This document shows, in pieces, positions 8,086-53,805 of a stretch of 64,000 nt of DNA; position 1 is the stretch's first letter; the number at the start of each line of letters is the position of its first letter. A model generated the notes under the pieces. It made no database searches. It had not been told where the DNA came from and saw only the letters and a list, made by a program, of their open reading frames with translations. The stretch is taken from positions 1-64,000 of the forward strand of contig JAKSZP010005278.1 of assembly GCA_022478985.1 (NCBI GenBank). The letters run 5' to 3'. Both the position numbers and the translations under genes were made by a program. Origin of the DNA: Massospora cicadina. Taxonomy: Eukaryota; Entomophthoromycota; Entomophthoromycetes; Entomophthorales; Entomophthoraceae.

Positions 8086-9370
8086 TGTTAGCCAATTGGT
8101 CCTTGCTTGCTTAAATTAAGTGGCTGAATTTCTAGTAGGTTTTCTGTCAAAACACAGATTAGACATTATGCAACCTTCTGAAGGGACATGGAATCATAAC
8201 TGAGTAGATCTTCTTCTTTTACTACATAGTATAGCATCAATGGTTGAACAGAACTGCTTATTGCCCTGCTGACAGTATTCTTGTTGAAGCTCTTAAAGAT
8301 AGTTTTTGTACATTGGTCTATAGAAAAATACTTAACAGAAACCTTGACTAACCCCAAAGATCGATGTATCCCTCCATTAGGTTGGGACCAACTAGTGCTA
8401 AAATAGAAACCTTGACCAACCTCTCATTTGATGTTAAGCAACCAAAATATCCTTCCTCACAAGTGTCCTGTTCCTTAGATCTCAGACTGGTCACTAACAA
8501 TCTCTTCACTTAACCCAAATAAGTGTTAACAAAAAATAAGCTTGATTTTCTGTGGTGAAAGCTTCTTTATTGAAATAAATTAAAGTATTTTTATACTTTA
8601 GGCTTAAGTTCAAGATTTAAAGTATATGTAAAATGATATAATGGGAATATGGTATAAATATATTTTAGGGGCTTCAAAAACGTATTGACAGTCTCTTTTT
8701 AATCTCCACCTTTGTGGCGGCATTAATTGACTTAATGCTTGTATCTGTAAGCTCTGTCTTATGGTGGACATCCCTAAACCAGGATGGTTTGGCTCCTTGC
8801 TCAACCCACTTCAGATTTAAGGCTGCAGTATTGCTTCTGATTATTGCTCCTTCCCCTAATTTGGAATATGCTAATCAGGCCAGGATTTGTATGATAGCGC
8901 TGCTCCAATGCGCTTTGATTCAAGGTTTTGATTGACCTTCAATATTACAAAATAGTCTTTTTGGGTAATATTCAAGTGAAAGGTTTGATTGCTTTTATTA
9001 GGGGTAACTTAGTTTGACTAAATTTCAGTAATCTTTTGTCATTGCCCATTTTGGAATGAATTAATCTATTAATCAATTGTAAATTGTCACGCCCAAGGGC
9101 TTAAAAGGGGTCAAATTTCATAGTTGTTAGCATTGTCATCATCTTTATATTCTAAATCTCTTTAGTAGCAGGTATCAAATTATCTTGTTTGACATCATCC
9201 TGAATGACTGATAAATTTCTGAGACGGCTGTCATCTGTAAAAGGGGATTCATATCCCTTATCTGAGTTTTGATATGCAACTGTATATCTTGTAGTGGTTG
9301 TATACTTGCGGGGTTCCTTCCAGAGGGTGAGGAATTAATTTCCAGTATCTTCATGGTAGTTTTCATGACA
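8086..9370 (-). repeat. Element G 3' LTR (1285 bp)
   Basis: Starts TGTTAGCC and ends TTCATGACA. It aligns with 26617-28879 once the insertion in that copy is removed. Shared blocks include CACAGATTA (8152 and 26690), TGTATGAT (8889), GGGTAATATT (8961) and GAGGGTGA (9325). It carries a 52-bp retroposon at 8354-8405 that the other LTR lacks. The short open frames inside it are not genes. Confidence 0.87.
8338..8421 (+). mobile_element. 52-bp retroposon with 16-bp TSDs (empty site known)
   Basis: An insert at 8354-8405 ends in GGGACCAACTAGTGCTAAAA and is bracketed by GAAACCTTGACTAACC (8338-8353) and GAAACCTTGACCAACC (8406-8421). The sister LTR of element G has a single GAAACCTTGGCCAACC at 26864-26879 and no insert, so this is a genuine insertion with a preserved empty site. 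The 3' end matches the inserts at 18994, 27482 and 40510 and the ends of two longer copies. Confidence 0.88.
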
Positions 9371-9399
9371 CTTCTCCCAATATAAGACCAGGCGAAGGA

Positions 9400-11217
9400 C
9401 CTAAGGTTCTGGGCATGTACTCATTTAATTACTATATTGGTGTCATCATCTCTTATGGAATACTTGGCTCCTCTCTTGTAAAGTATAGCTGCAGGTCTAG
9501 TCCATATGACTGACAACTTTTCAGGCTGGCTTCCTCATACATGGTAGATAGGACCTTGTCTCCTAACTTGACTCTGGTAGTCTAATCTATCTTATTCACA
9601 TGTTGACTCTTGTAAATAGTGGCATAGATGTTCTGGGATAATTCTGGCTGAATTTTAATTAACTCAACATAACTCTTGATGATAACTCCCAAGTAGAAAG
9701 ATTTCAAATCTGCAAAGATGAATGGTGAAAGTAAGGTAGGTAGCGCTGCTTCTTATCCTACAGGGTCTTTTACAGAAACATGTTAATAGTACAGTAATGT
9801 CTATGTTGGTAGCTAGCAGAGAGGATGGTAGCAGTTCTCACTTCAACCTGTAATTCAAGGCATTCTTTTCAGTATCCTAAGGTTCCATTCACAAATTCTA
9901 TGCTTCTGTTGGTGGATGAACTATATGGAGTGGTAAATTGTTGTCATACACCAATTAGATCCATTAGATTTCTCATGACATTAAAGAATAATTCTTGCCA
10001 TTATCTGGTAGCAGAGTCTGAGGGCATCCATGCCTTGCTACCCTTGGTTTTAAAGGAATATGTTGAATGATCATGTGGTGTATGTCTTGACTGCTGATGC
10101 TTCAATCCTTTTGTGAGATGGTCGATAGCCATTAAGATATAGTTGGATTCATTTGAGGAGGTAGTCAGTGGTTCTATCACGTCAATGGATACATTGTAAA
10201 ATATAGGTATAGAAAGAATTAGTTGGAACTCAAAGCATTACTCTGTGGGTCTGAAGCTCTTTAAGGGTACAAAGAATTTCAGGGCGTAATGTGCTTTGTC
10301 AGACATAGACTCATAATAGAATTGGTCTCTTAGGTATGCTGATACTCTCTGGAATTGTCCATGATCAACATGCTTTTGAGCTTCCATAATAAAGTCCATA
10401 ATATCACTAGTTCAGATGTATGGGTACCACTTGTACTCATTATTCTTCTATAGGTTCCCATCAATATGCTAAATATATTTAAATTTTGTGGACATTATTC
10501 ACATAGTCAGTCTCATCTTGTTATTCTCCTCTGGTATTCAATTTAGTCATAAAGGGAATCACTCTCATGTGCTTGGAGGTGGAATACAGGCAATCAAAAA
10601 AGTCCATTAGCGTTGATATGTTTGCTGCCTACTCAATGTATTATATCAAAATAATACCTTTGGAGTTTTACTGCCCATTGGCTAAAATCCATATAATTCT
10701 TTCATGTTGCGCAGCCAGCAGAGTGATGTGTGATCCATACAGCTTTACATTGTAGACATATAAGTAGATTTAAAAATGCTTCACTGCTCTTATCACCGCC
10801 AGGCATTCTCTTTTCGTCACTAAGTAGTTCTTTTCAGCTCTGATAAAGACATTGTAGTAGTACTCAATGTTGATTTATCCCTTCTTCATCCAATTTGGGC
10901 GAGTACTGATCTTAGCCATTTCACTAGCATCAGTAGACAGGCAAAATTTAATGTTGAAGTCAGGGTTAGTTAGGATTGGTGCCTCTAACAATCTAGATTC
11001 CACCTCTTCAAAGGCCTACTCTTAATCCAGGCTCACATTTAAACTTGGTCTCCTTGGTTAACAGGTAGATATTCGATGCAGCCAAGTCCAGAAAATGGTG
11101 GATAACCTGCTGATAGCATCCCACCATACCAGAAATACTTTGATGTTATTTATACATTATGGCAGTTCCATGGCAACTATGGCTTTTATCTTTCCTTCCT
11201 GAGGCTTGATTTCTTTG
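9400..11217 (-). pseudogene. Element G RT end, RNase H and integrase, broken
   Basis: C-terminal half of the G polyprotein. Reading downward from 11217: the end of RT, continuing the frame left at 23454; RNase H with LSTDASEM (about 10940) and, further on, AEKNYLVTKRECLAVIRAVKHF-like sequence (about 10840-10780); an integrase zinc-binding region near 10440-10300; and the integrase core with SIDVIEPL (about 10190) and IDHLTK (about 10120). RNase H removes template RNA and integrase inserts the cDNA. Stops and frameshifts interrupt every domain, and the second and third integrase acidic residues cannot be placed with certainty. Confidence 0.8.
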
Positions 11218-11223
11218 GGGCTG
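11218..11223. repeat. Target-site duplication of element P, left copy
   Basis: GGGCTG just before the LTR start TGATTC. The same six bases follow the 3' LTR at 23448-23453. One copy plus the flanks gives back an open RT frame in element G. Confidence 0.82.
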
Positions 11224-11949
11224 TGATTCTCAAAGCGTTTCCTGACTGCCACATTGCCTTAATATCCCAATGCAAGGGCATTAAGCCAGTGGCAGAAGAT
11301 TGAAAAGCTGAAGTATTTATGCATTTGAATGCCAGTCTCAGGAGAGTCTAAAAATTACAATTAACAAATGTTTTCCAAAAAATCGATTAACTCATAACTA
11401 ATGTTAAATTAAATATAAAATAATTCCAACAATGAAAAGTCCATTTGACGCTTTGAAAATCACCCATCACTTGAAAATGGATCGAGATGAGGTGAACAAC
11501 ATTCCAGAAGTATTGTATTTCGCCATAGTGACCCCCAACACATGAGGCTCATGTCAGAGGCCAAGCTGCTGCTCCTATAAAAGCCACCAGTGACAAGAAT
11601 TATCCTACCTTCATCTTCTAGTATGTGCGATAAATACAATAAAAAAATAAATTATCAATCTTTATTGATAATATCAGGGACATCTATTGGGATTTATTTC
11701 AGATAATTATAGATTGCACCTTGGATCAGGAAAAGGCCCTCGCAGCCTTGTTCTCCAACTCCTGCGGACAAGCCATGTTACTAACCATAATAATAATGCT
11801 CACCTTTTCCAGGGTCTCTTTGTTAAATCTACCAACAGCCAAAGGACTAGGGACCTTATTTTTGGTGTCCTAACATTCTATGTACCATCATTTTGGTATT
11901 GCCTCCAAATCGTTTCGTTTCAATGGAAAGAACCAGTTCATCATATTAG
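11224..11949 (+). repeat. Element P 5' LTR
   Basis: About 726 bp, starting TGATTC; the exact end is uncertain by a few bases. Parallel blocks in the 3' LTR include TTTCCTGACTG, CATTGCCTTAATAT, GCTCACC and AAAGGAC. It carries a TATA-like TATAAAA and an AATAAA in the same places as the 3' copy. Confidence 0.82.
11576..11643 (+). promoter_or_regulatory. P LTR core: TATA-like box and AATAAA signal
   Basis: CTCCTATAAAA (TATA at 11576-11582) is followed about 60 bp later by ACAATAAAAAAA (AATAAA at 11638-11643). The 3' LTR keeps both in the same order (TATA at 23079-23085, AATAAA at 23133-23138). Conservation in two diverged copies supports a promoter plus polyadenylation region and fixes the plus orientation of P. 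Confidence 0.55.
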
Positions 11950-12437
11950 AAAATGTTCATATAACCTACTTTTTTCTGGCGCTGGACAAGGTGGAGAGAC
12001 CACATGGAAGAGAATTACCAGCTTGTTGTGAACACACTACCATCCTCCTCATCATTATTTTCTCAATCATGTTCTTGATTAGGGATACCAAGAGGCTTTC
12101 CTTATCACACAATCAGATGCCAGCCCACAAAGCCTCTCCACCTTCTACAACCAAATAACTCCATGCCCTTTCTGTAAAGGAACTGAGTGTAGTGCACAAG
12201 ACTTTTGCTTGCATGAGACTCCAAGTTCAGTTGATGATAGCGTCAGGAAGAACTACCGCGGCGTCACTTTAGATTGCCCAGGTAGTGGCTACTCTTCCCT
12301 TAAACCTCTATAACTGGTTCAAAGATCTCGTGGAGACTCAGTAAGCCCTACAGGCCTCACTGGATGAATGGCACAACTTGTGGAATGAGCCGCCCCGCCT
12401 AATGACTCATAAGACAGCAATAAGTCTTGGAAACTCA
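11950..12437 (+). pseudogene. Element P gag remnant
   Basis: Stretch between the P 5' LTR and the insertion point of Q. One plus frame around 12240-12420 reads as a gag-like capsid segment, with LPLNLYNWFKDLVETQ followed by LDEWHNLWNEP. This resembles the capsid pattern of an aliphatic residue, then W-F, then a later W, found in Ty3/gypsy gag. The frame is interrupted by stops and then cut by Q. The rest of gag should continue after 18388, where only scattered similarity is visible. Call rests on pattern and position. Confidence 0.5.
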
Positions 12438-13413
12438 TGTGGCTTAATAAAAAAATAACTTTTCATACTAAGAGGAGGAGAATGCTGGCGGCCATCCCTC
12501 TTGTTACTTTGGGCGATTTGCACATGCTGTAGATGAGAGGTAGTTGAAGGCATATTATTGAAGATCACGTCATTTTACATGCTAATCACCAATGAGTTGG
12601 TCCAGAAAATTCGGGGGCGTGAGGGGAAGTGGTGGCGTTCAGGGGCCATTTGCAGCAGAGGGTTGGTAGAGATTCTCCCCCTTAAAAGGTTGTCTCTGGC
12701 AGTTTGAATTCCGCCAATAAATCTAATTTGATAGCCAGCAAAAATAGTTTGAGTAATCAATTAAAGGCTTGGAAATCCTCAATCAGTGCTACCCTTAATT
12801 GCCAGCAATCACAATCCTGTCGCTGATAGTATCAAGTTCAATAAACCCTTTTCCAACTCAATGGGACTGGCATATGTGTCCTGGCTATGAGCATGCCCAG
12901 TTTCCCGTTGGATGAACCATCACCAATTTTCCAAGTGAAATCTTGTCAGGAGGAAAATTTGGTGGCAAAATTTGAGCTTAAGTCAGCTGTCCAGGCCGAG
13001 CACAATCAAGTGTCACAATGGTTTTCAAATATCAATCTAATTTATTCAAATTATGTGATTATTTGTGATATTGAGTGCAATTGTTTCCTATCCCTAATTT
13101 TTGTTTGTGAGCTTATAAGGCAGCAGACCCTGACTTATTCCATTGTCACTGTATTTTCCCCTTTCCATCATTTAGTTCCAATAAAAAACGATTATTAAAA
13201 ATAAAACTTTATTTGTGAATTTAGCAGTCCACCAGAAATTTAGTAATTATGATTGTAAATTTTGGAAGTCTCAGTTTGGTGCTCAAGGCTGCCTTACTAC
13301 TGTTTCACTCCACACTACAGATGTCTGTACCAGAGGTATACTAGCTGGTGTTCTGGGTGGTCACTCACCCTGATTCCAGACCAGTCTTATTATTATCAGA
13401 ACGCTCCATAACA
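12438..13413 (+). repeat. Element Q 5' LTR
   Basis: Matches 17408-18388 throughout; shared blocks include GCGGCCATCCCTCT, AATGAGTTGG, AGAGGGTTGG and GAGGTATACTAGCTGGTGTTC. An open frame at 12887-13198 falls inside it and is not considered a gene. Confidence 0.85.
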
Positions 13414-13843
13414 TAATTGAGTGACCCAAATTCTTATCCTTCTCCATCCTGCCCTTTAGGTGGGGTGTTGCATTGGTTTTGTTGTCTGAGCAGAAGGTTG
13501 AACCTAATGTTAGGGCGCTGTCTGAAGAGAGGATGGCCTGTTCATAGGATCACACTTCTTATGCTGCAATTAGAACATATTTATTTACATAAACACTGGA
13601 AGGTTCTACCCTTGGGTCAAGTGCAAGAGGATTCAGGTTTCCCCTTTTTCCTCAAGCTGGCCGGTGAAAAGGAGCTCAAGCGTGGGTAATTGTTTGTTCC
13701 TGTGGTCACCGATCTACCCCTGTTCCACAGTTGTAGGTTCTGATGCTAGTATTCTTGTTATCAACTCTTCCACTTCTGTAGAGCATATGAAATGAATCCA
13801 CTGGTGCTACTGTTGTTTGCGGAAAATTTGGCATAGTTAGGGT

Positions 13844-14140
13844 TTGTTCAGATGGTTGAGATCATGGCTTCTTTTTTTAGAAGATGGGCTGATAGATGGT
13901 TCAGTAAATATCTCTTCCCACACAGTCACATCTTACAAAATGGCTGACAAACAAGATCAGGATTACTTTCTGTTATCAGTTAAGATCCAGGTGGACCTTT
14001 ACGTGTTCTCTGTTGAGGCTCTCTTGGACACAGGAGCTACAGGAACTTTATAAACTTGCAGGTCGCTCAGGAGTTGGATCTTTATTTAACATATGGTCCT
14101 TAGTTTTAAGTGCATCGTCAAACTTGACTTCCTCAAGGTA
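13844..14140 (+). pseudogene. Element Q retropepsin (aspartic protease) relic
   Basis: The protease cuts the Gag-Pol polyprotein. The open frame at 13844-14053 ends with VEALLDTGATGTL, which holds the DTGA catalytic loop with its Asp intact, preceded by an LSVKIQVDLYVFS strand typical of Ty3/gypsy proteases. A stop follows directly, and after a shift the expected NLQVAQELDL-type helix can be traced in another frame. Upstream, 13414-13843 should hold gag and a zinc knuckle; an open frame at 13417-13689 has no motif I recognise. Confidence 0.78.
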
Positions 14141-14399
14141 GATGCCCTGTACCAATCTCAATGCTTGGGTTTGGTTTCTGTGATTCGTTTACCGCTGTGC
14201 CAGAATTTTTATTCTTCAGTATCCTTTGGGTTAGTTGGTGGTGGTGGTAACAGGTTAGTATTAACCTGGAGCCCAACATTTTGTCATTTGAGAATCTGTA
14301 CGCAAGTGGTAAATTTCCACTGGTTAAACCTGTTTCACCTGCTGGAGAAGTGGTTTCAAATGTGTAAACTCCTTCCTCTACAGCGTTGTTAGTAAACAT

Positions 14400-15620: not shown

Positions 15621-15790
15621 ATGTATTTCCAAAAACTGCAGAAGCTGAAACTTTGACAAACCCAAACTTACCACGACCTCTTCAGTTTTAGTTTTTAATA
15701 AAAAGTTTATCAAAGGATTCTTGAATGATCTCCCAAATTTGTTGAACCAAAACCCATCTTTGAGTCTGTAGGAGGAAGAAGGACAGGAGC

Positions 15791-17330: not shown

Positions 17331-17407
17331 TTAATGGCCCAAGTTCACGGTGGGGATGCTCCCCCTAACTTAAGGGAAGGGTAACGCAAGTCTTGTGGAG
17401 CAACCCT

Positions 17408-18388: not shown

Positions 18389-19419
18389 ACTTACTTGGTC
18401 TACTCTTCTGTTGCCATCATAGGGCTGTATGTCCATCATCAAATAATCTCAAGTTTTCTGACCTCCTCTAAAGCAGCCAAAGTCACATCCTCTTAACTCT
18501 CCAGTATGTTCCACCGGAACCTGCACCCTGAAATCCTATCTGCAATGGCAGCCACCCGCTTAGGCTCCAACTTGGAAGAAGAGATTTCATTGCCATGAAA
18601 GTGTAAAGCCAACTGGTCCTGGTACAAGCAAAGATATATTTGCCTACCCCATATAGAAGATTTTGCAGCTGCCGCGCTAAGTCAGAACCGCCTCTGCTTC
18701 TCTCAACTGTATAACCTGCCATAGTGACACCATTCCATTCTGAATCCACTCAGACAAACACAGACCCTGAGGCACCACTTTCCCTTCCAGAGTACAAAGA
18801 CTACTGCATATAATTTTTATTTTTACTTTAGCCTACATCAATGCTATAAATAAAGATCTTGTTTTGCTTTACTTTTTTGTGCCGTTTACGCTGAGTTGTT
18901 ATGCAAAAAGGAAAAATAGGCTCAATGAGAAATTATGGGCCCTGGTAGACATGGAGTCAGAGGAGAAATACCAAGAAAAAGAATTATCAACTATCTAGTA
19001 CTAAAAAAAAGAATTATCAACTAATTTGTATACTAGAAATACACCTAAAGCGAAGTATCACTCTCACAGACACTAACAAATCCTTGATTTGTTGAAAAAA
19101 TCCCTTGTCTTACCCTGCTAAGGTCCTCACTAATCTTAGGGAACCGCTCATCGCAATAAGGAACCTCCCTACCCCAACATCCTAGGTATGTAGTGGTGGC
19201 ACTGGTCTCTCTGTAGTTTAACGTAGAGGAGCGTTAGGTCATGCTGCACCCTATGGTGGGCCGCAGTGGTGTTGGATCTCATATAAACCAACAAGAATGG
19301 GCCTGACATAAATGCCCTTTAACACGTGGATATGACTTTGGATATTCCTAGGAGTTCCATTTTTTTGACACCTTATATGGAATAATCACTCCACCGCAGA
19401 TTCTCCAAAGGGGACATAC
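18389..19419 (+). pseudogene. Element P internal region after Q (gag end to protease), unreadable
   Basis: P sequence resumes after Q. By position this should hold the end of gag, the zinc knuckle and the protease, but no DTG or CCHC motif can be read. A short PLSLPEYKDY piece near 18770 resembles the linker that precedes RT in chromoviruses. A short retroposon copy lies at 18994-19005. Identification rests on location between the recognised P parts. Confidence 0.45.
18976..19023 (+). mobile_element. Ultra-short (about 12 nt) retroposon with 18-bp TSDs
   Basis: AAAAAGAATTATCAACTA is present at 18976-18993 and again, identical, at 19006-19023. Between the two lies only TCTAGTACTAAA, which matches the last bases of the other retroposon copies. 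The simplest reading is target-primed insertion of an extremely 5'-truncated transcript. A plain 30-bp tandem duplication would not explain why the inserted bases equal this family's 3' end. Confidence 0.8.
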
Positions 19420-20560: not shown

Positions 20561-21279
20561 TAAGGTGCTACAATTCTATCTGTTCTCATAGTGGATGAAC
20601 CAAAGTCAATCCGCTGAAATATTTATTTGTCTCATTCCAATAACTAAATAATAGTACAAGCTAGGGGAGAGCAACGTATTGCCTGATCTATCTGTTGGAT
20701 TTTCAGGGGAGGAACTCCAACCCAATCCCTACTAACAGGTCCTAAAAGCCCCCAGCGAGTTAAGAGGCCATCAAGGCCCAAAGAAAAGCTAAAAACGGAA
20801 AGGGAATTGGAAGAAATGGTCCTTTTAATAAAAAAATCCTCGAGGTATTTATATGACCTCAATGGATTGGGAAGGAAAGGATCAGAAAGTTTCAGCATTT
20901 TTACTGACAACGAATGAGAAAATAAAACAAAATAATATTGTAATGGGTGCATCCTTGGCATAAGTCGCCAGTGTGCCCAAAAAGGATAATTGATTGGGTG
21001 CGAGCACCAAAAGGGATTTCGCTGCTACCTGATTGAGTGGTTAGCATCCTTGGCATTAGTTGCCAGTGCCAAATTAAATAAAAGATAATTCACTTATTGG
21101 GGTTAGTCCCTGGTTTTTTGGATTGGGCTTACCCCAAGTTAATGGGGAGCCCAATCCAGAATCCACCCGTAGGTAGGTCAAGACTCCAAGTCAGGGCTTC
21201 CCCCAATTAATGGAGAATCTCAACACTATTAAGACAAGAGTCAAAGATGACGTTTTAGAAAGAGGAACTTGATGTATAT
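20561..21279 (+). other. Element P, RNase H end to integrase start, no clear domain
   Basis: Lies between the recognised RNase H and integrase of P. It contains two close copies of a GCATCCTTGGCATWAGT block (about 20948-20965 and 21047-21063) and two similar stretches around CCCCAAGTTAATGG and CCCCAATTAATGG (about 21132 and 21202), perhaps from local duplication. The minus frame at 20644-20961 has no recognisable motif. Confidence 0.4.
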
Positions 21280-22729: not shown

Positions 22730-22734
22730 TGATT

Positions 22735-23447: not shown

Positions 23448-23453
23448 GGGCTG

Positions 23454-26616: not shown

Positions 26617-27465
26617 AGTCAGCTCATCAGTCCTTGCTTACCTAACTTGGTCATATATTTTTCTGTGGATAGCTCTGTTCCACACAGATTAAACATCAGG
26701 CGCCCTTCTAAAGGTGCGTGATAATCCTCACCTCATTATTTTCTTCTGATGCTATCCAATGTAGTATTGTGGCTGGTTCAAACTGTTCTTTGTACAATTG
26801 CTGGTTTATCACTGACATTCTTAGACATATCTTCAATATGCTGGTCTAACACAAGACTCAACGGAAACCTTGGCCAACCTCGCCCTTGTTGTTATCAGCA
26901 ACAAAAGTGTCCTTCTAAATGAGTTTATATTCTTTAGATCCCAGAATGGTTATTGGCGATCTCTTCTGTTTCTTAGATCCCATACTGGTTACTGGTGATC
27001 TCTTCACTTAAACATAATATTAAAGAAAACAAAGATTAAATCATTAGATTCTGTGGTATAAAGCTTTTATATATTGGAAATTAAACGATTCTATTTCAGG
27101 CATAATTTAAAGATATTAAATCTAATGTAAATTTATAATAAATTGAGTTTGGGGTATGTTGATATTGTAGGGGCTTCATGAAACCCTGGTCAGTCTCTTC
27201 TATATCTCCCCTTAGTGTTGGCATCCATCTGAATAAATTATTGTATCCAAAAGCTCTGTCTCGCAGTGGACATATCTGAGCCAGGATGTTTGATGGCCCT
27301 TTGCTCAATACCTATTAAGGGTCTGAGGCTGCAAACCACTTTTGTTTATTGCTTCTTCTCCCAATTTGGTAATGTTCCTATTGTGTCAGGATCTGTATGA
27401 TGGCACTGTTTAATGCGTCTCACTTCAAGTTTTTGACCTAGCTTTAATAAAGATTGCTTGTATTG

Positions 27466-27518
27466 GGTATTGGTCCTCCCAGACCATCTAGTACTAAAAA
27501 AAGGTATTGGTCCTCCCA
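27466..27518 (+). mobile_element. 21-bp retroposon with perfect 16-bp TSDs
   Basis: GGTATTGGTCCTCCCA at 27466-27481 is repeated without change at 27503-27518. The 21 bases between them, GACCATCTAGTACTAAAAAAA, are the 3' end of the retroposon family. It sits at the 5' edge of a longer copy of the same family, so a short copy has landed in a long one. Confidence 0.85.
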
Positions 27519-28453
27519 CCCCCACCCTTGAACGCTGTGGGTGATGCTCCCACTTCTCTGACTAAACAAGTTTTGACCGCCTGACCCACTCCTGAGCATA
27601 TGTCAGCTCATGCGCAAGAAGAATTAGTGTGGTCTAATGTGCGCTGCCAATAAGCGCTGCCACCCCACCAACTCCTGTTGCTGTCCCATCACTCGTCATG
27701 TTAAATCCTTTTGAGGCTCTTGAATGGATTGAAAATGCAGACTGCTTCTACAGAATAAATCCCAATTTTGACTGGTCGGAATTTTTCATATAATCCATCA
27801 ATTTGACTCCCCATCACCACTTCCATCCTTGAGACAGGTTCTCAATTTACAAAAATATTCATCAAAAGGTTGTCAATGCAGCCACTGCCCCACTAAAACC
27901 CTCCTCCGCCAAGCTCTCCCTATGGAAATTGAGCCACTGTGCAAGAAATTTCCTATACCTAACTTCCGTGTTGATTTCCCCAAGGACGCCAAATTCTATA
28001 TTGTGAATAACTGGCATTTGCAGCTGGACGTATGTGCATCAACGCAGCAAGGGCATTTACTCTATGACCCCAACTACCCCCAAACCTGCCAACGCATTAG
28101 ATCCTTCATTTGTTCTTGAACTTTATCACATTTGCTGAGTTTTAACTCGCCAATACGTTGAGGCAATACACACCGCTGCCCTCATTTGTAATATAAAACC
28201 CATTCTTTCTATTTCTGCCACATGTCTCTGATGCTCTCACCCACCTTTTGTCCACATTTTCCCACCACCTGAAGCTGACGCCAGATTATAATCCCCCAAC
28301 CCCTCTACCCCTTCTAGAATTAGTGCTTAAACTAACGCAGTGGCACCATGTAGAATTTTTTTATTTTATTAATTATCCCTTTGTTTAGAACACTCTATGT
28401 AAAGATGCGTAAAGGACACCCACTTATGGTTGAGCACCACTAGTACAAAAAAT
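27468..28453 (+). mobile_element. Long retroposon copy (about 0.97 kb) in the G 5' LTR
   Basis: This block interrupts the LTR and ends GAGCACCACTAGTACAAAAAA, the family 3' end. Flanks are similar: GATTGCTTGTATTGGG before (27452-27467) and GATTGTTTGTTTTTTTGGG after (28454-28472), read as an aged TSD with T-run growth. The body has several Pro/Cys-rich plus frames, the longest at 27829-28119, and shares blocks with 53137-53784 in inverse orientation (GCCACTGCCCC, CCTCCGCCAA, CCCCAACTACCC, GGCACCAT, TTTTTTATTT). I do not recognise a protein; a short gag-like EALEWIENADCF segment is seen near 27720. Confidence 0.72.
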
Positions 28454-28879
28454 GATTGTTTGTTTTTTTGGGTAATATTTAGATAAAAGGTTCAATCACC
28501 TACATCTGGGAAACTTAGTTTGGATGATTTTTATATCATTATTTTAACATTGGACATTTCTGATAGAATTACTCCATCATTGGGCGAGTTTAAATTTTAC
28601 CCCCTAAAGGTATAAAAGAAGTCAAATTTCATAGTCTTTTGTATTGACATCATTGCCTTTATATTTTAAACCTTTTTTCCAGAAGGTATCAAATTATTGC
28701 TTATGAAGTAATTCTTCTGGTGGGGGATTTAAATACTCATCATCATCTAAAAAGGGTTCATCTCCCTTATCTACATTTCAATTTTGAATATGTAATTCTT
28801 GAGATAGTTTTATAATGGCAGGTTTCCTCACAGAGGGTGAAAAATTATTCTTCGGTATACTCTGGTAGTTTCCATGACA

Positions 28880-28884
28880 CCAAA
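28880..28884. repeat. Target-site duplication of element G, right copy
   Basis: CCAAA directly after the LTR end CATGACA; identical to 8081-8085. Confidence 0.8.
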
Positions 28885-36770: not shown

Positions 36771-36773
36771 TAA

Positions 36774-40359: not shown

Positions 40360-40740
40360 TTTCTTGCCTTACAGCCAATTTATGATGCAGCTACCACAAA
40401 AGTCAAAGTGGTAATCAATAATGTCCAAATACTAGAGATTTTCAACATGGGAACTCCTATCAATTTTATCTCTTCTAAACTAATTAAGAATATTAGCTTG
40501 CCTGGACCTTAGATCGGTGTATCCCCCCTATAGGTTGGGACCACCTAGTGCTAAAAAAGCTTGCCCAGACCTCAAATATGCTTAAGACTATGCAATTTAT
40601 GAGCTTAATTCTATAGAGGTCTGGAGCTTATCTTCTTTACCAGTCCTAGTTATTAAACTGATTCTCTTAGCTCCTGCTATGATGTTATACAATCACCACT
40701 ATGACCTTCTTAATGAAACACATATATGCTTTATAATATA
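40360..40740 (+). pseudogene. Isolated Ty3/gypsy protease relic, split by a 48-bp retroposon
   Basis: The frame around 40372-40509 reads QPIYDAATTKVKVVINN, then EIFNMGTPINFISSKLIKN. This follows the retropepsin pattern (strand, then D-x-G-S/T-x-I-N-x-I-S, then K-L/hydrophobic). The catalytic Asp reads Asn. A 48-bp retroposon then interrupts it, and a second part (about 40573-40735) keeps VLVIKLILLAPAMMLYNHHYDLL, matching the distal strands. No RT is recognisable downstream. It differs from the proteases of Q and T in sequence. Confidence 0.6.
40495..40572 (+). mobile_element. 48-bp retroposon with 15-bp TSDs
   Basis: The insert at 40510-40557 ends TTGGGACCACCTAGTGCTAAAA and is bounded by AGCTTGCCTGGACCT (40495-40509) and AGCTTGCCCAGACCT (40558-40572). 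The insert is close to that at 8354-8405 (GATCGRTGTATCCC, AGGTTGGGACCA), showing a common source sequence with different truncation points. Confidence 0.87.
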
Positions 40741-42069: not shown

Positions 42070-43975
42070 TATTGGCTTGGAAGCTGTTAATAATGGAGCT
42101 CCTTGATTGCTGATCCTGCCAAGTGCAGACTTTGTTAAGTCATTTGATTTCTTTATGAAAACGGTGTTCATCCTAGTGAAATTCATATAAAGCTGAATGA
42201 AGGGTATGGTGCGGGTTGTATGGTTTTCAAAAACGTCTGCAAGTGGTTTAGAAAGTTTAAAGCTGTTGATATAGAAATTTATGATTTGAAAAAGAAGCAG
42301 GAGACTGTCAGTGTGTCATGTTTACATGACCTTGTTAAGGAAATCAACAGCAAGGACAAGGCTGGTAGGCAGAAGGTCCAAAGGGTAAAATTGCAAAACC
42401 TTCCTGAAATTTAAGCACACCTTGGATCAACGCTGGTTACAGGCTAGGTATGCCCAGGCTGGTACAAGTGAGGTGTCTAAATCCCAGCCCCTTTTTTGGC
42501 TCTGGCGCTAAAATGGACAAGTTTTCTATTAAATGATAATGGCTCAATACAGTTAATCAGTGAATGGGGGTTCAAAAACTGTTCTATTTATGAAAGTGAA
42601 AGCTCAGGTCAGGTTCAACTTCAAATAATAAAATGAGTAAAATCAGTTTTGAAGTATGTTACCCAGTTGGATGGAAGCATGCTCCTATTGGTGCACCAAG
42701 GCTTAGTACCACTTTCACTGATACATTATTACCCAAGTTGGCTTAATTATGTTTGCTCAAGACCAACGTTTCTTGTTGGTCATCTTCCCTAATAAAACCC
42801 CTATTCAGTTTACATTTTTTCCCATATGTTGACTTGGGTAGACCTGTGTGCAGACCTCTTCGAGGAGGTCTCACAACGTGTCAGCCAATTATTTTATAAA
42901 ATATTTCAGCCTCAGGTACACCGCTGGGCCTTCCAGGTTCCCTCAAAACAAGGTCACCCGTGAACTCTAGCCCTGTTCAAAACTCAGTTATGAGCTACTC
43001 TTTGTGGCACAGCCAAGTTTTGCTTATGGCTCAATATATTATTACTTTTATTATGCTCAATACCCTCGCCTCATGTCTCCTTAGCTCCAGCTCCCTCTGC
43101 TTGGCTATTCTTATGTTCACATTGATGACGAGTTCCCTTGCTTTGGTCCAGTGCTTTGTGCACCGCCACGCTGGGAACTGGAGAGGTATAGACACTCTCT
43201 TGACACATTGTCAATTGAGATGATAACAAAACTTTACAAAGTCATGCATGAAGATTGGACGATCACTATCCATAAGCTCTCTTGTTTTCTTCCTGAAGTT
43301 ACAAATTCCACCATTCAGAGGTTTGTGACTAAAGAGGTAAAATATTGGAAGGTGTGAGTAATATGGGTTCCACAAATTCTTAAAGAAGATCACAAATGGG
43401 AACGGGTTAAAGTTGCCCTTTAGAAGGAGCACTATGCAGATGAAAGTGATGATTTTTTGAATCTCATTGTCACAGGTGACAAAACGTGGGTTCACCCCTT
43501 TACACCTGAATCCAAATAACAATCATTTGAATGGCGGAATCCAACTTTGCCAAGGCAGCGAAAATTCAAACAAACACCATCTGCTGGAAAGATCATGGCA
43601 ACTGTGTTTTGGGATTTTAATTATGTATTATTGATTGAATTAATGCCTACTGGGACCACAATGAATGCAGACGAATTTGTTGAGACACTCAAAGAACTGA
43701 AATGGGAAATTAAGAACTAGAGAAGAGGAATGCTCACCAAAGGCATGTCCATTCTTCATGACAATGCTTGCCCTCATGGCGCACATGCATTTGCCAATAT
43801 TCTGAACCAATTTGGATGTGACATTTCACCCACCCCCCTATAGTCTGGACTTGGCACATTGTACTACTATTTGTTTATGCATTTGAAAGAACATTTGTGT
43901 GGAAGGCGATTTGATGATGATGACAAGGTAAAAGATGAGGTCAATTGCTATCTCAATTTCATGGCTGAGTATATA
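42070..43975 (+). pseudogene. mariner-type (DD34D) transposase, broken
   Basis: Transposase that cuts and pastes its element at TA sites. The helix-turn-helix part before the LTR reads HPSEIHIKLNEGYG, then VCKWFRKFKA, then KKQETVSV. After the LTR: SIEMITKLYKVMHEDWTI, STIQRFVTKEV, then VPQILKEDHKWERVKVAL. Catalytic region: VTGDKTWVHPFTPESK (Asp codon 43478-43480), MATVFWDFNYVLL, MPTGTTMNADEFVETLK, RRGMLTKGMSILHDNACPH (Asp codon 43760-43762, exactly 94 codons on), then PPYSLDLA (Asp codon 43848-43850) and LKEHLCGRRFDDDDKVKDEV. All three Asp survive; stops occur near 43423, 43517, 43720 and 43842. Most similar in pattern to metazoan mariner rather than to fungal Tc1/Fot1 families. Confidence 0.88.
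42314..43205 (+). repeat. Solo LTR of family S inside the mariner
   Basis: 892 bp, starts TGTCATGTTTACATGAC and ends CTCTCTTGACA. Flanked by CAGTG (42309-42313) and CATTG (43206-43210), a 5-bp TSD with one change. Removing the LTR and one duplication brings the two transposase parts into one frame. Both family hairpins are well kept, at 42761-42781 (GACCAACGTTTCTTGTTGGTC) and 42853-42870 (GACCTCTTCGAGGAGGTC). Confidence 0.88.
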
Positions 43976-43985
43976 TGACCTGAAA

Positions 43986-45047: not shown

Positions 45048-45850
45048 TGACAAAACAATAGTCGATCCATAATCTTCCTATAAGTCTAGATAATAGTAAA
45101 AACGTTTAATGGTGGTTGCAATCCAAATTTCCCATTCAGCTATTTCAAAAAAAACTTTATATAAATTTATATTAAAAAGTGAATTCTGTATACCTTAAGT
45201 TTTTGCCATAGCTTAGCGATGTGAGAATTAAAATAGGTTATCCACGCCTAAATTGGTTTATAAATTTTACTCTTTGGTTTACTTCATATTGTTGAGCTTC
45301 ATTCCCATTATGCCCAAGTTGGAATTCTATTTCGCATTACTTGAACTATAATAACTTACCAATTTTGCACCTATTTATTATCTGTTTCAATTTGAAATTT
45401 GGTTTTTAAGTTAAAAATATTAATGAGTTGTTGACATTCCAAGGAAAACCCTCAGCACTGTTGCTTGCTCTGATGACAGAGGATCAGCAAATAATTCCTC
45501 ACCAAGCCCAAGGTAACAAAGGCCATCTTGATCATGCAGTGGCACCACACCTCGACCTGTTGTTTACACTGATTGAGATATCAGTACGAGTACATAGTCA
45601 GTAAGAGCATGCTCCTAAAGTCTTCACAAGTGGCTAAAGGCTGAGTATAGCGTGCTGCCACACCATACCTTGGCACTAGGTCTAAAACCTGATGGGAGAA
45701 GACCAGCAAATTTAACAGATTTTATCAATATAAATTGACACTTACCTATTTTGCTGTATAGTTATGGCGACTCTATTTTGGCTGATTATTTTTACAAGTA
45801 GCAATTGAGGCTTGATTAAACTCAACTTTGCACTATTCCAACCTCAAACA
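45048..45850 (+). repeat. Left long direct repeat of the small element
   Basis: Matches 46181-46965 throughout: GGAAAACCCT, ATTCCTCACCA, TGCTGCCACACCATACC, TTTTGGCTGA and AAACTCAACT occur in the same order. Exact right end uncertain by about 10 bp. Confidence 0.72.
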
Positions 45851-46180: not shown

Positions 46181-46965
46181 TGATAAAGCAATAGTACATA
46201 ATATATATATAAGTTGGTATAATGTGAAATGTGTGTAGTGGTGGATGCAATCCCTTATCCATTAAGAAATTTTGAGTAAAAATTATACTTAGAAATAGTT
46301 GATTTTTGGATACTTTGGTTTTGCCCCAGCCTAGCAATGTGGTAATTGACTAGGTTTTCACGCCTAGGTCATTTCATCAAAATTGACTCTTCAATTCACT
46401 TTATATTGTTAAGGCTGAAATTCATTGAGCTCAAGTTGGTATTGTATTTCATATTTCTTAAACTCTAATAAAATTGCCTAATTTTGCACTCAGCATTTAT
46501 TTCTTTAGTTAGATTTGGTTTTGACTTATAATTTTTTCTATCAAAGGGTAGTTGGCGTACCAGGAAAACCCTTACACTGTTGCTTACATATGTAACAGCA
46601 TATCAGCGCCAAATTCCTCACCATATCCAAAGAAAAAAGAGGCTGGTTTTATAAAGCAATAGCCTCGCACCTCAACCTGTTTGTTGACACCAACTGAGAT
46701 GTCTGCTAAGAGCTTATTTCCAGTAAGAGTATACTCTTTGTTTAACACAGCTGTCTAGAGACTAGTAGAGACTGCTGCCACACCATACCATGGCCTTAGG
46801 TTTATGAACTGGTGAAAGGAGACCTGCAACTTTACCAGATATTAATTAAAATAAAAAGGATATTATCTATTTTCCATATAAATGAGGCATTTCTCTTTTG
46901 GCTGAGTATTTTGCCAAGTAGCAATTGGGGCTTGGGTAAACTCAACTGTTACAAGACCCAAGACA
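46181..46965 (+). repeat. Right long direct repeat of the small element
   Basis: Partner of 45048-45850. It begins TGATAAAGCAATAGT after GGAGTGATG and ends near CAAGACA. It carries a short TATATATATATA run at about 46201 that the left copy lacks. Confidence 0.72.
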
Positions 46966-49900
46966 TTTACTGCTCTTGACGTTCCACTTCCAACATAAAG
47001 GATAAACTTTTTGCTCCTAAATTATAAAATAGAGCCATAAAGCATGTAAAAACTATTGAAGCAGACTTGAGATTTAGACAATAGCTAATGCCAATGAAAT
47101 CAAAATATATCTGAAAATGGACATCCTTTGAAAATTCTAAAGGCAAAGCTTTGGAGCAAGGCCACAATGCCTGCCAAGATCAACACCAGAACATGCTTTT
47201 TCATAGTCTCTTTACTCACCTTAAACAGAACGCCTCATGGAGCAGGTCCCCAGAGTTCTAACCTGACCTGCAGAAATTATGGAAATGAATATTATAGTTG
47301 GATCCATACTAGTGCAATATGGATAGTGATAACTACAAGCTATTGCGACACTCCTGACCTTTAGTAAAATATAAATGTTATCAATTTCTTTAAGAGATTC
47401 AAATGGCCATATTTGAGGCATGAGATCAGAATAAAGTGGCCACATTTGTTAATTGCTTAAAGATGAAGTTTTGAGATTATAAAATAACTATTTAGGTGAT
47501 AACTTACCTGTGCTGAGTATAAGAAGGCAATCCATGTGAATTTAACAGTCCCAAATTTGGCAACTAAAAATGTTTACGTTTATGAAATAAACTTTAGAAA
47601 AATTTTAGATTATTAACTGTTGCTGATCATTTATACCATAGATCCCAAGTACTTCTTGGCGTTATAGACATTATTGACCATATATGATGATTGCATTCCA
47701 GCTTGCATTGTAACTCTATTGTATTCTAATAATTACTGTTTATCATAATTCATATAAAACTTGTATAATTTCAAAAATAGCCAATTATTAATGCATATTT
47801 TAGCAGGCCTAAAGACCCCCAAACACATGCGTAAATCCTAAATGAGGGGTATATCATGAATACCCTGATAGCCCAAAATCTATCCTAACAATGACGAGGT
47901 CAAAAAGAGTCATCTTAAGCTGGATCTGCAAATATGCTGCAGCCAAGATCAGAGGCCACTTGCTATAGAACAATCAAAAGCAATTATTCCATGAAATGTT
48001 CTAAATATAGTATTAAAATTATTACTACAGAAAAACCTCAGCAGGAGGGAAAAGCAGTTCACAAAAGAAGTGAGAGGATCTATTGTAACAAAAACCCAGT
48101 ACCCCTGATTCAGATTATTACAATAGCATGTGTGACAAGGCTTTGACATTAGGAAAAATGGTAATGAATATATTACCCATCATGTGCATACACTATTTTT
48201 AATGATTCTCACGTGGTGACACGTTCTTAGAAGAAGATTGATGACATAAAGGGAATAGATGTGGTATCTAAACCATATGTACACCAAATCATCACGAAAC
48301 TTTTCAGCTAATGGGATAAGAAAACAGTGATACCCAAGTTTTAGTTTTGTGAACATATTGATATCCATTATATGCTCCTTAATGTATCCCCCAGAATTAG
48401 CAAAACCCATAAGACAGCACTAAATTTCTAGATCCATCACATATTCATCAAGCGAATTTTACAATTTCTACTAAGGTATACTAAAGAAATAAATAAAAAA
48501 TGATCAACGTATATAATGCTAATTTTATAAAGTTGGTTTATTTTGTGCAATAAAATTTAATCCATGGAATCCTCAGACTTGATGTAATCATCTAGTAGAA
48601 TCAGAAATCTCTTCTTTGGAAGTGGAGGTGTTTCAGCTGGTTTAGTTAATGCGAGAATAAGGGACAATCTTGATGAATATAAAAAGAGACTACATCAAAA
48701 CTTTAAAAATTCTCTAAATGTCTATGCCTTGTTTTCATTAGTTTAGGCCAAGGCCTAATATCAACTAGGCGTCACCCTGATTAAGCCAAAAAGTGGTCAA
48801 AAAAGCAGAGAAATGGCCATTAAAAATGGGCTACAAAAAGTCAAGGTAGGTTTCACACTTGAGTAAGGCAGCAAAAAGAAATAGGAAACTGATTAGAAAA
48901 ATTTGCAAGAGAGGTACAACACCAAAAGGTTGTGTTTGGTACAAATCATTTATAGACAGGCCTCATCTAATAGTTTGAATATGTCACAAACAGTCTTAAA
49001 AAGTAAAATGACAAAGGAGGATGACAGATACAGGCTAGTAGTATCATCTGTATTAGCTATCATCCATAAATCTTTTAGGGCAAGCTTTCAAAAAGATCGC
49101 TATAAAAAATCTGAATTCAACACATACCTTGATTTTCAACTTTTGAAGCCTAAAATGGCATGTAATCTGCAATTAATATTGATGGTGCGAGCCAGAGTTT
49201 GGTAATGGAAATGACAAATTTCTAAGCCTATCTTGCAACAAATGAGTCAATGAAAGCAAAGATTGGACCTGAGGCAAGAGCAGAAATCATATTGGCTCAA
49301 CAAGGTCAGTCATTACATAAAGAATAAGGCCAATATGGATAAGCTGCCATCATGATTAAATAGAGAATTCTCCTAATGGAAAATCTTGTATTTGGATTGT
49401 ACATCAGATTATGATTTCATTGATATGGTTCAGATTAGTATTTGGGTGGTTGGGTGGTCCCTCTAATTATATAGTAGTAAGTTCATTAATCTCTATTTTT
49501 TACTCATTGTGTTCATTTCCTGATGACTGTTTATTGATCAAAAATTCTGGGAAAAAGCCTTAAATTTTGATTAAAGCAAGGAAGTTCAGACTTAGCTAGT
49601 TTCTCATTTACTAAGATTAAAGTATTTATCAAAATTATTCAATAGCTTTCAGTAAACACTGCTAATAATACTAATAACTCAATTGTTAGTAACACTGCCT
49701 CACAATTTGATTACGTCTTGTAGAACTCTATTCCTGGATTTGTTTTGAACCTTGAGTTAGATTGAAAAATAAATTTAATTGCCTTTTTGAGTAAAAGTGG
49801 TTTAATAACAGATATGTTAATATAAATTTACCATTCATCACATAGGAAGTGGGAATTAAATATTAATTTGTCACCTATATAAACCCATTCTTTCATCATT

Positions 49901-51693
49901 GTTAGATTGACTTAATTTAAGGATTTTTATCTGATAGTTTTTGATATATATAAAAAAAGTATATCTGTTTATCTATTCATATTGTAAGAAATGTTTGCCA
50001 AATAATTTTAAATCCTTTTACAATTTTTATTGTTATAAACATTTTTTCAGATTAGCTTCCTATTTTCATACTGTGAAACACTTAATAACAAAACCTCTTT
50101 ACAAACTTGTGCAAGAATCCGTTTTTTAATAAGTGGTGCTCACTGCAGGGGGAGTCTGAGTTAAATTATCAAGAAGTGAGAAGATGAACAAAGAGTCATT
50201 TTTAGAAAAAGTACTCAATTTTTAGTTGGGATAGCGTAATTACCCACACTAAGTGATCCTGTGGTACATTGTATTGAAGAAAACCGCCATTGTTATTTAT
50301 AAGAAGCTAATGGAGAGAAATATTGAGAGCTTTAAAGATGTTAGGTAAACACTGATACAAAGGTTCCAGTTGCTGCCAAAATATACCATTGATAGGGCTT
50401 TGGTCTTTTTCCTCACCTTATAATAAGGAAGAAAGAAAGTAGTTAACATCTTATCTTACACTGTCACCTTCTAGGCTTGTAGGGAATTTGCATAATGCAT
50501 GACAACTAAAATAGTATATTGTAATTTTGTACAGTCAACAAATTGGAATATGTAACTAGTTCTAGGCATCAGGCAACAGTTGCCAATCTAGTTTTGTATA
50601 CTTGCAAAATCTATTAGTTTCACAAATTGATTGACCAAATTGATTCTAGATACTACCAAATTAGGTATGGGTTTAAGTTAACATCTCAAAGTGTGCTTTA
50701 AGCCAACAAATAAGTCCAGGGACTAGTTGCCAAACTAATACAAAATTAAGCAGCATTATAAAGGATGCATTGGAACAAAATTTGGTACACACCAAAATGG
50801 AAACATAATATGGACATTAGTCAACAAAAAGCTTAGGGAAGTATTGCCAACTTATACAACAATAAACTAGCTGCTATACCGCTGACACAATGCACAAAGC
50901 TGAAGCAATATATACTCACTTTATGCCAACACAAGTAGTCAAAAGATATTATGAATTACAGCTTATTAGCAACCTAAAGACACAGTATTAGGATTCAATC
51001 CAGAAGCTGTTGGCAGGATTTTTTAGCACACTAGGTTTAGGGCAGTTGATTTGGATTTTGAATTAAAATCTAATATATAGATGGAAAAGTACTTAAACCC
51101 TATAGAGGTTCAGCGGTACTAATGTATCAAACTTCAAAGAATATAAAAATATGATGCAAGGAAAATTTTTATGAGAATAGCTAGTACTAATTATAGTACT
51201 AGTATAGCACTATATTAATTTATGGGAAAAGGAGAAATGTATATCTGAAAGGGTTATATAAGAAAATCCCACATTAGTATTTACTAGATTATAGCTCATG
51301 TGATATTATGGGAGAATTTTAGTCATAAAAATAACACCACCCAATCTCATCAGTGGATCACTAATAGAGCAATTTTATGTTTAATTTGCTAATCAATCCA
51401 TGACTATTAATTCCAATGTTCTTGATGATAACTACTATTGCATAATTAATAAATTATATATATTAAAGATTAATACCTAGTACAATCTTCACTCTAAATA
51501 AGGAAAATCCAAACACAGAGATACTTAGAAATTAAAGGAGTGTGGGCCTAACTGAAAGAGCTTGAAAACCAGATGCTGGATTAAATATCTATTGAACAGG
51601 CTGAAATATTGTTAGAAAGAGTTGAATATACTGAATTTAATATGTAAAAACATGAGTTAAAAATTTCAGGGACTCAAGAACAAATTATGATAT
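46966..51693. other. 4.7-kb AT-rich region without recognisable gene
   Basis: Several frames of 60-100 codons (47128-47364 plus, 48180-48410 minus, 48903-49205 plus). None carries a domain motif. The 48903-49205 frame is Lys/Arg-rich and could be an eroded retroelement part. No repeat partner within the window was noticed. The last five bases, GATAT, may be the left target duplication of the following LTR. Confidence 0.45.
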
Positions 51694-52827
51694 TGTTAAG
51701 TTTATAGCGATGGTGTAAGCTAAATTGACTTAACAAGGGATTTGAGGATATAAATTTGCTTTTCTAATAAAAGCTCCTTCTTGTAATTGGGAAGTAGATC
51801 CTCTGATAATACCCAATAATAGCCAAGTAACTCCGGTATGCTCACAATTCTTAAGTCTACTGACAACAACAATTACAAGACTTTCTGTCTTTGTAAGAAA
51901 ACTAGGATCTAATCTTTTTATAATTGGGACTACTTCTCCATCAGGTATAATTGAGTTCTTCTCTTTAGAAAGTATAAACACACACAACTATCTAATATAG
52001 AAATAAAGGCAGCTGAGAAGAATAACAAATGGATGACAGATGGACAACAATAATTAAAATAGATATTGTATGATGATCTTAAATGATGATGAAAAATAAT
52101 GTTTTTATTTAATTGCCAAGTGCCAGTATTATATACCTCTCAGGAATCTCCTGGCCAAAATCATCTATTAGATGAGTTAATTCAAGATATTTCAATCCTC
52201 TTCTGGTCATTGAAATAATTATGAAATATCCCCAAAACAATATGGCTCATGCTTTGACTAAAAATCATAATTGTTCTGGCCCAATCAATGGCAATTTTAC
52301 TCCTTTAATTGGGTCAATTTTAAATGAGAAACTCAACATTAAAATCTTTCCAATTAAAGCTACATAATAACTTGAAAAAGAACAATAATTAGGGATAAAA
52401 ATATATATGACTCAAAAACATGGTGCACCCTAATTGGGACGTTGACAGACCTCTCATAGCACTAAGTACGCCTATAATCATGATGTCTATATCCAAGTGC
52501 TTAATAAATTGATTTTATTAATTGAACCCAAAATTCCGCCCTAGTGCATTAATATTAGTGCACTAATTTAGGAGGTGCAATTCAGTTGATGCTGTGAGAT
52601 CACTTTTCACCCAAGTGGCCTTTAATTGGGCATAATAATATTATATCATAGATAAGATTAGCTATAATAATTGGGACAATTTAAGTACAATTGAGGCAAT
52701 TTTGGGATGGATCTAACTATGCAGATAAATTGGGAAGGATTAAAGGATCCATCAATGGGAGTAATCTATCATAATTGATGGTTTTCTTGAAGGGTTTATT
52801 TTTTGAGTCAACCATCAAAATCTAACG
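51694..52827. repeat. Solo LTR of family R, copy 1
   Basis: 1134 bp, starts TGTTAAG, ends TCTAACG (final CA decayed). It matches 55948-57084 from end to end: AGCTAAA...GACTTAACAAGG, AACACACACAACTAT, CATCTATTAGATGAGTT, AGTGCACTAAT and ATGGTTTTCT are shared. Flanks GATAT (51689-51693) and GTTAT (52828-52832) agree in four of five bases. The 85-codon minus frame at 51730-51987 lies inside and is not shared as an intact frame with copy 2. Orientation is undetermined. Confidence 0.78.
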
Positions 52828-53136
52828 GTTATTAGTAGAACTAATGGGAAAAATGATTACAAGAATTGCAACTGACTAAAGAATTAAAAGAATTGTACCA
52901 AACCCCAGAAATTGGAATCATGAAAATGAACCAAAAGTGATAGAATTGACTAGAGCCCATTTTTCATTAAGGAGAAAAATGCATGACGCTATATTAAGAA
53001 GTTGGAGAAATTGAGATGTATATGGAATTTCCAAACCTGATAGTGAAAGTAATATAAGATCCAATTTAAAAACTTGTGGAAGGTTTTAAATGTATTGGGC
53101 ACCCTTCTTATTCTTTGGAAAATTGTCTGACCGTCA

Positions 53137-53784
53137 TTTTTGGAACTAGCGTAGAACAGCCCAAGAGTAGGGCGTCCATGCTCTTTTCTTGTAATACCAA
53201 TTAGATATTGAAATAAAAAAGTCTCTATATGGTGCCTCAGAGGCTAGCTTAAGCTGCTATATTGGATGTGGAAGAGGAGGGCTTGGGCTCTTTGTCTGAC
53301 GCAAACTTGAGAACACATGTTAGAGCAGATAATATGGAAAGGGGGTATTGGTGGTATGGGGTTAGATGGTGAATTAACTAAATTATTTTTGTTGATGATG
53401 TTTGAAGTGTACATTGCTTTGACATAATGGCTGATCTGATGCTTAACATATTTTATAAGTTTGGGTAAACTATTGAAACACTTGATTTGTTGGCGTGTTT
53501 GTGGGTAGTTGGGGTTAAATAGGGACAACTTTGTGGCATTGCACATGCACAGCCTGCGCAAACACAAAATCTTCTGTTTCATTTTTATTAATCTCAGGAA
53601 AGTTAGACAGAAAATTGTGACAGGAGATCTCATTGACAAGCAGCTCCATGGCCACATGGAGGGATTGGCGGAGGTGGACATTAGTGGGGGCAGTGGCCAC
53701 TTTAACAGCAAGTTGGTAGTGGGTCCAATAAACTGGGAAGCCTGGTAGTGGGCGGAATAGCATGGATGAGAAGGTTTAGCGTCT
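53137..53784 (-). mobile_element. Long retroposon copy (0.65 kb), minus orientation
   Basis: Its 3' end, at the left, reads on the minus strand TACGCTAGTTCCAAAAA, a diverged form of the family tail. Flanks are an aged direct repeat: GGAAAATTGTCTGACCGTCA (53117-53136) and GGAAGAACTGGCAGACCATAA (53785-53805). The body matches 27880-28370 in inverse orientation. A minus frame of 155 codons (53711-53244) includes FNPNYPQTRQQIKCF, while the other copy has YDPNYPQTCQRIRSF. Conservation of that frame hints at coding ancestry, but the protein is not recognised. Other frames overlap (53763-53515). Confidence 0.72.
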
Positions 53785-53805
53785 GGAAGAACTGGCAGAC
53801 CATAA

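Follow-up and report, generated by a model that had tools for sequence, protein, structure and literature searches.

The window analysed here, that is, the whole 64,000-nucleotide stretch from contig JAKSZP010005278.1 of the fungus Massospora cicadina, contains six inserts, copies a to f, which share a 3' end with an A tail and belong to a repeat family most of whose sampled copies are only about 11-46 nt long. Copy a (8354..8405, + strand; CCAAAGATCGATG...CTAGTGCTAAAA) is of subfamily I, ends near a boundary inside the hexamer AATAAA (AATAA/A; see below), and lies between the two halves of a target site duplication (TSD) at 8338..8353 (GAAACCTTGACTAACC) and 8406..8421. Copy b (18994..19006, +) has a subfamily II type tail (TCTAGTACTAAAA) and a perfect 18-bp TSD (18976..18993 and 19006..19023), its length being 12-13 nt since the final A is possibly part of the TSD. 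Copy c (27482..27502, +), 21 nt including its A tail, also has a subfamily II type tail (GACCATCTAGTACTAAAAAAA) and is flanked by a perfect 16-bp TSD (27466..27481 and 27503..27518); it is nested in the 5' junction of copy d (27466..28453, +; about 0.97 kb). The latter has a tail of a third group (III), is homologous to copy f and to two copies from elsewhere in the assembly (L031 and L041), and has a degraded, coding-like body with no Pfam match in the piece scanned. Copy e (40510..40557, +), 48 nt long, is of subfamily I, falls in the AATAA/A boundary class and has its TSD at 40495..40509 (AGCTTGCCTGGACCT) and 40558..40572. Copy f (53138..53790, - strand; about 0.65 kb), with an uncertain 5' edge, is again of tail group III. 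An earlier note on this stretch had placed the inserts accurately to within a few bases (for example, copy d at 27468-28453 and copy f at 53137-53784).

The shared tail is far from a chance motif, since the 12-mer CTAGTRCTAAAA occurs four times in the window against 0.04 expected, a number reached in none of 100 shuffles; the 3' termini of the two longer copies are CTAGTACAAAA and CTAGTTCCAAAA. To assess the TSDs, the repeat of each insert was scored against 1,658 other AAAA anchors of the window. None of these anchors (0/1658 in each case) matched the TSD of copy a, b or c, and for copy e four of the 1,658 were as good within 70 bp, rising to 188 when 1,100 bp upstream were allowed. For copy d an open search was not significant (646/1658), and 26 of 3,000 random windows were as good in a position-limited test at the expected 5' edge. 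The TSD of copy f was marginal (155/3000 random windows as good), and in the anchor test its best-scoring repeat (454/1658) differed from the one claimed. In addition, the window holds two related repeats, at 8.3-9.4 kb and 26.8-28.9 kb, each of which lacks the insert carried by the other. Specifically, the repeat copy at 26864..28880 (+), which contains copies c and d, has a single copy of the TSD of copy a near 26.86 kb and thus represents its empty site, and the repeat copy at 8406..9371 (+) has an empty site for copy d at approximately 8938-8960. The earlier note had presented all six as inserts with a common 3' end and direct repeats. This stands for five of them, three with strong TSDs (8354, 18994 and 27482), one with a good TSD (40510) and copy d with a weak TSD plus the empty paralogous site, while the sixth, at 53 kb, has only a marginal TSD despite the homology of its body to the copy at 27.5-28.5 kb. 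The two long copies look older.

We found the tails to be abundant in the host assembly (1,469,884,898 bases in 16,968 contigs). The 22-base type I tail gave 19,262 matches when up to two mismatches were allowed and the 18-base type II tail 24,564 exact matches, with none for either reversed-pattern control; the two sets overlap, since two letters differ in the stretch, so that the counts are not additive, and both take in long LINE (long interspersed nuclear element) copies. Our main sample comprised 68 of 100 listed exact type I places, fetched in listing order. A TSD score of at least 9.5 within 110 bp was reached by 46 of the 68 copies and by 27 of 1,360 mismatched pairs, and a score of at least 12 by 35 of 68 and 0 of 1,360, respectively; TSD lengths were mostly 15-22 bp. 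The earlier note had suggested scoring direct repeats beside tail matches throughout the genome and held that a retroposon origin would fail if most matches lacked them; most fetched copies have them, and the observation holds strongly. Similarly, in a sample of 20 chosen by the 5' core, TSDs were present in 9 against 3 of 380 controls, with 15 copies stopping at the core and 5 continuing, and in a type II sample of 20 chosen on 34 bases, TSDs were present in 9 against 1 of 380 controls; the short copies were precisely these 9, and the remaining 11 extended into the LINE. A further type II set, the first 20 places listed for the 18-base pattern, was read by eye without a scored control. Ten of its inserts measured about 18-31 nt, 5 ended at the hexamer boundary or no more than two bases from it, and 5 extended upstream (one, L125, only to about 60 nt); all 15 short inserts had a TSD. 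Of 17 non-anchor motif matches listed, 12 had a TSD, so that motif matches with no TSD nearby also exist. The copies thus combine variable 5' ends and TSDs of variable length with a constant 3' end, a constancy that is partly due to choice because copies were picked on that end. Among the fetched places, L019 (about 3480-3590) carries two micro-insertions in series with a near-identical TSD present three times, which reflects either a second insertion at one site or a duplication, and L034 has, near 201, a type II micro-insertion directly adjoining a type I boundary copy, with linked repeats.

The source of the family, which the earlier note had left open between a SINE (short interspersed nuclear element), a retrotransposed gene and the 3' end of a LINE, is a LINE 3' end for the two tail types that were well sampled. 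Type I tails are found on five long copies (L008, L015, L026, L037 and L047) that carry or adjoin pieces of endonuclease, reverse transcriptase (RT) and zf-RVT, L008 being a 309-bp copy with a perfect 15-bp TSD, and the type II tail is on an older copy in L009, with RT and endonuclease in L009 and in L051, the stretch next upstream. The matches to RVT_1 in L009 (2611-3195, minus strand; E = 4.8e-17) and to Exo_endo_phos in L051 (8.1e-6) were above the curated Pfam cut-offs, and the RVT_1, endonuclease and zf-RVT matches of type I were below them (6.3e-6 and, for the endonuclease, 3.4e-4 in L047; 1.1e-4 in L026). The type I pieces with these sub-threshold matches were nevertheless 55-83% identical to the protein pieces of L009, the range for L047 and L037 being 34-83%. 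The RT of L009 resembles LINE-type RTs, with its five best relatives 37-46% identical and named ones lower down including plant RT-domain proteins. These relatives, together with the zf-RVT match (1.1e-4, below the cut-off), hint at the L1 clade, suggesting that the source is L1-like. The assignment to a LINE covers types I and II only; group III, whose tail is more divergent, includes copies d and f, L031 and L041. A viral origin of copies d and f was considered and rejected, as the two pieces searched had no relatives in viral_contigs; a PDB search returned nothing for one piece and only two designed barrels (E = 0.006) for the other. No exact match to the tail was present in the viral and prokaryote collections.

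The window itself contains a frame-broken LINE of another family (2236-7479, minus strand), which has a perfect 17-bp TSD (2219-2235 and 7480-7496), matches to a zinc knuckle, endonuclease and zf-RVT, an RT similar to that of the type II LINE, and a tail ending in CCCAAATAAA. It was rejected as the source, because this 3' end resembles the tails only weakly (shuffles were as good in 3% of cases for copy e, 6% for copy a, 69% for copy d and 80% for copy f), and the L047/L009 type is therefore preferred.

The lengths of the inserts are not smoothly distributed. Among the 68 places of the main sample, the LINE tail was matched up to 22-35 nt in 13 copies, up to 40 nt in one, up to 43-53 nt in 41 (30 of them at 45 or 46 nt) and beyond 63 nt in 13, and no match ended between 53 and 63 nt; one of the last 13, L028, is an alignment artefact whose TSD gives 27 nt. 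Eleven inserts from fetched flanks and the window, for which length had played no part in the choice past about 12 bases, measured 11, 13, 16, 16, 18, 18, 19, 20, 26, 41 and 50 nt. They belong to a set of 47 short inserts, which was restricted to lengths of 8-60 nt and to copies with a TSD; the shortest, of 11 nt, is flanked by a perfect 20-bp TSD. Lengths therefore fall into three classes, namely the last 35 nt or so of the LINE, a stop at AATAA/A, and extension into the LINE. The extreme bias to tiny copies described in the earlier note is retained for the sampled copies, but truncation is not random, since a large class stops at one nucleotide in AATAAA.

In both types, the LINE has an AATAAA ahead of the tail (AATAAAGATCGG in type I and AATAAACATCGATG in type II, with AATAAACGTCG in the L009 copy), and in both subfamilies the boundary class stops between the fifth and sixth base of this hexamer (A5/A6). 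The stop lies 45 nt from the 3' end in subfamily I and 44 nt in subfamily II, and this difference of 1 nt indicates that it is tied to the hexamer rather than to a fixed length. In a walk along the template, 28 of 39 short TSD copies of subfamily I and 7 of 10 of subfamily II matched the LINE only up to A6; one base more was matched in 7 and 2, respectively, two or three more in 3 and 1, and one less in a single subfamily I copy, the extra matches being about as frequent as chance identity of the next base. The AGATC core was kept in 52 of the 68 copies, 40 of which stopped at the core and 12 continued, and genome-wide 185 of 1,052 exact cores were preceded by an exact AATAA, a proportion that sets a minimum for read-through. 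The 262 exact 34-mers were not taken as the denominator for subfamily II because the pattern misses the TTGGG variant, and the count of 783 matches is likewise too low since the C run varies. At the 5' junctions of 36 boundary copies with TSDs, 24 joins were direct (13 with no shared base and 11 with one or two), and 12 had 1-4 extra bases with T as the last base in 7 of them, as expected from non-templated A added to the cDNA. The bases before AGATC were T in 18 of 40 copies at position -1 and in 24 of 40 at position -4, compared with a background of about 30%; this excess perhaps stems from non-templated addition or from a sequence preference at the second nick.

We consider it likely, with a probability of roughly 0.85, that the short inserts are 3'-terminal pieces of an L1-like LINE (subfamilies I and II) that were placed by target-primed reverse transcription (TPRT), with copying frequently stopped either early or at A5/A6. 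Insertion by this route, read from the anatomy of the copies, is well supported, and the proposal of the earlier note that LINE machinery acted by TPRT agrees with the LINE-derived tails, the TSDs and the short lengths. The target would be nicked, the short A tail would serve in priming, copying would proceed from the LINE 3' end, and joining would leave the TSDs. The polymerase would often halt early, within the last 11-35 nt or at A5/A6 of AATAAA, and in other copies would extend into the LINE body. The class of 11-35 nt probably reflects early dropping off.

Several observations weigh against this reading. The long LINE copies that we read have broken frames, which bears on the activity of the RT. 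The first 100 listed places are first by contig number and not a random draw, and the evidence for the length classes comes from sets of 68, 20, 20 and 20 places in contig order plus a few exact genome counts. No TSD at the threshold was present within 110 bp in 22 of the 68 copies, of which 12 were LINE copies too long for the search and 10 were short, and among the type II places selected by 34 bases, read-through was the majority (11 of 20). Stops at 11-35 nt do not represent run-off of the template at A6, so that a second reason for stopping, such as low processivity, is needed. Finally, RNAalifold analysis of 22 tails revealed no supported structure that could explain pausing or processing (-1.28 kcal/mol, with a covariation term of -0.02). 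CTAGT and AAAA were invariant in these tails, which were partly picked on the same letters, and there was no consensus helix with covariation. A tail hairpin, which neither the single-sequence folds nor the 22-row consensus supported, was set aside.

Most likely, at about even odds by our estimate, the fixed stop arises because the RT reaches the 5' end of a putative template RNA beginning at A6 and runs off it. Such a template might be a product of cleavage of the LINE RNA within AAUAAA, or else a distinct short RNA corresponding to the LINE tail. Run-off is favoured by the exactness of the stop, by the copying of the last A and by the extra bases at the junction. More tentatively, the RT may begin copying a full-length LINE RNA until a factor bound at the hexamer halts it, after which the copy is closed; candidates for the roadblock are a cleavage/polyadenylation factor still on AAUAAA and a LINE protein holding the RNA, the latter forming a boundary as in telomerase. 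The constant place of the stop relative to AATAAA in both subfamilies, despite the 1-nt difference in distance, would fit such a block, and read-through in 12 of 52, 5 of 20 and 11 of 20 copies would suit a leaky one, whereas the sixth base of the hexamer is copied although it lies inside the footprint that a bound factor would be expected to have, the extra junction bases fit run-off better, and no structure was found in the tail. It is possible, again tentatively, that the LINE ribonucleoprotein has a fixed template boundary, such that a 44-45 nt RNA, or a boundary set by AAUAAA, usually provides the template for TPRT.

Other origins appear less likely than any of these. An independent mini-SINE, that is, an element of 44-45 nt amplified from its own master copies, would account for the one 5' end common to many copies, but we regard it as unlikely: short and LINE copies share internal variants (a run of C5 or C6; TTTAGG, CTGTAGG, CTATAGG and CATTAGG), both LINE subfamilies yield short copies cut at the same base, neither a tRNA nor an Rfam match at the gathering score was found in the window, and the copies would be too short for an internal RNA polymerase III (Pol III) promoter with A and B boxes. 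Ordinary 5' truncation through low processivity alone, with the peak an accident of sampling or microhomology, is quite improbable. As it would predict, there are also copies of 11-35 nt and others of several hundred nt, but 30 of 68 matches end at 45-46 nt with none between 53 and 63 nt, 13 of the 36 boundary joins with TSDs are direct without a shared base, and the boundary recurs in two further samples. That the inserts are a processed pseudogene family, copied from an ordinary poly(A) mRNA of a cellular gene, is very improbable. Copies d and f, with their degraded coding-like bodies and no known domain in the pieces searched, would be in keeping with it, but the tails of types I and II end 44-45 nt past AATAAA with only 4-8 A, the same tail sits on LINE copies, and the long type I and II bodies are LINE. 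For types I and II, the family is thus neither a SINE nor an ordinary retrogene.

Compared with known systems, the copies are like 5'-truncated LINEs of the L1 clade in having endonuclease, RT and zf-RVT in the source, an A tail, TSDs mostly of 15-22 bp and loss of the 5' part. However, truncated LINE copies are 100 to 1,000 bp according to the accessible part of a review (PMC3747384), and the partly accessible report PMC12016303 gives medians of 394 bp for somatic and 1,240 bp for germline human L1 insertions, whereas the present copies are mostly 11-46 nt and many end at one base of AATAAA. The conserved tail common to short copies and LINE recalls SINEs that share a LINE 3' tail under stringent recognition, as described in the same part of the review (PMC3747384); unlike those SINEs, as far as that text describes them, the short copy here is the tail alone, with no separate 5' body or Pol III promoter. 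Our sampled copies end in AAAA but were picked by such a tail, and tailless copies would have gone unseen. Tailless retropseudogenes are reportedly cut at the 3' side. Those of therian mammals, as set out in the accessible part of PMC5322556, also comprise short truncated RNA pieces with TSDs and defined cut positions, but lack oligo(A), whereas the present copies are truncated on the 5' side and retain both the A tail and the LINE 3' end. A literature search with limited coverage of subscription journals found no description of micro-copies that stop at AATAAA, which is weak evidence of novelty. At its template boundary, telomerase provides a case of an RT stopping at a fixed template position. 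The parallel is an analogy only, as there is no repeated copying here and no boundary structure was found.

The remainder of the window contains several other features. Three pairs of repeats, 74-81% alike (29984-30868/36774-37662, 12481-13413/17454-18388 and 51694-52819/55948-57077), look like the long terminal repeats of old elements, and RVT_1 pieces lie between the members of the first two pairs; a Gypsy-type RT piece of the window had no protein match at E = 0.001 or better. Entomophthorales are described, in the accessible part of PMC11105155, as having giant fungal genomes with old Ty3 elements. A Mariner/Mos1-type HTH_48 remnant is present at 42148-42411 (+; Pfam 1.2e-6). At 20949-21068 a 25-bp direct repeat, perhaps a tandem duplication, flanks a 70-bp stretch without an A tail; at 26934-27005 there is a 39-bp tandem duplication seemingly absent from the related copy at 8.5 kb; and 45048-45827 and 46181-46947 form a tandem pair of repeats of about 0.8 kb that are 69% alike. 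Over the whole window the observed/expected ratio of CpG was 0.30, with CAG and CTG not depleted, which suggests CpG methylation without loss at CHG.

The cause of truncation in LINE copies is an old open question. In the present family, one truncation class has a single-nucleotide address in two subfamilies, so that its cause can be tested by one mutation in AATAAA and one RNA assay. Ordinary repeat annotation would miss an insert that is shorter than its TSD, so that the number of LINE events in genomes may be higher than current counts, and short scars of direct repeat plus filler in other places may share this origin. If the LINE ribonucleoprotein does have a fixed template boundary, what the element inserts would mostly be its own recognition tag, with the LINE RT being used much as in telomerase, and this would amount to tens of thousands of micro-insertions, with the element itself being copied only in a minority of events.

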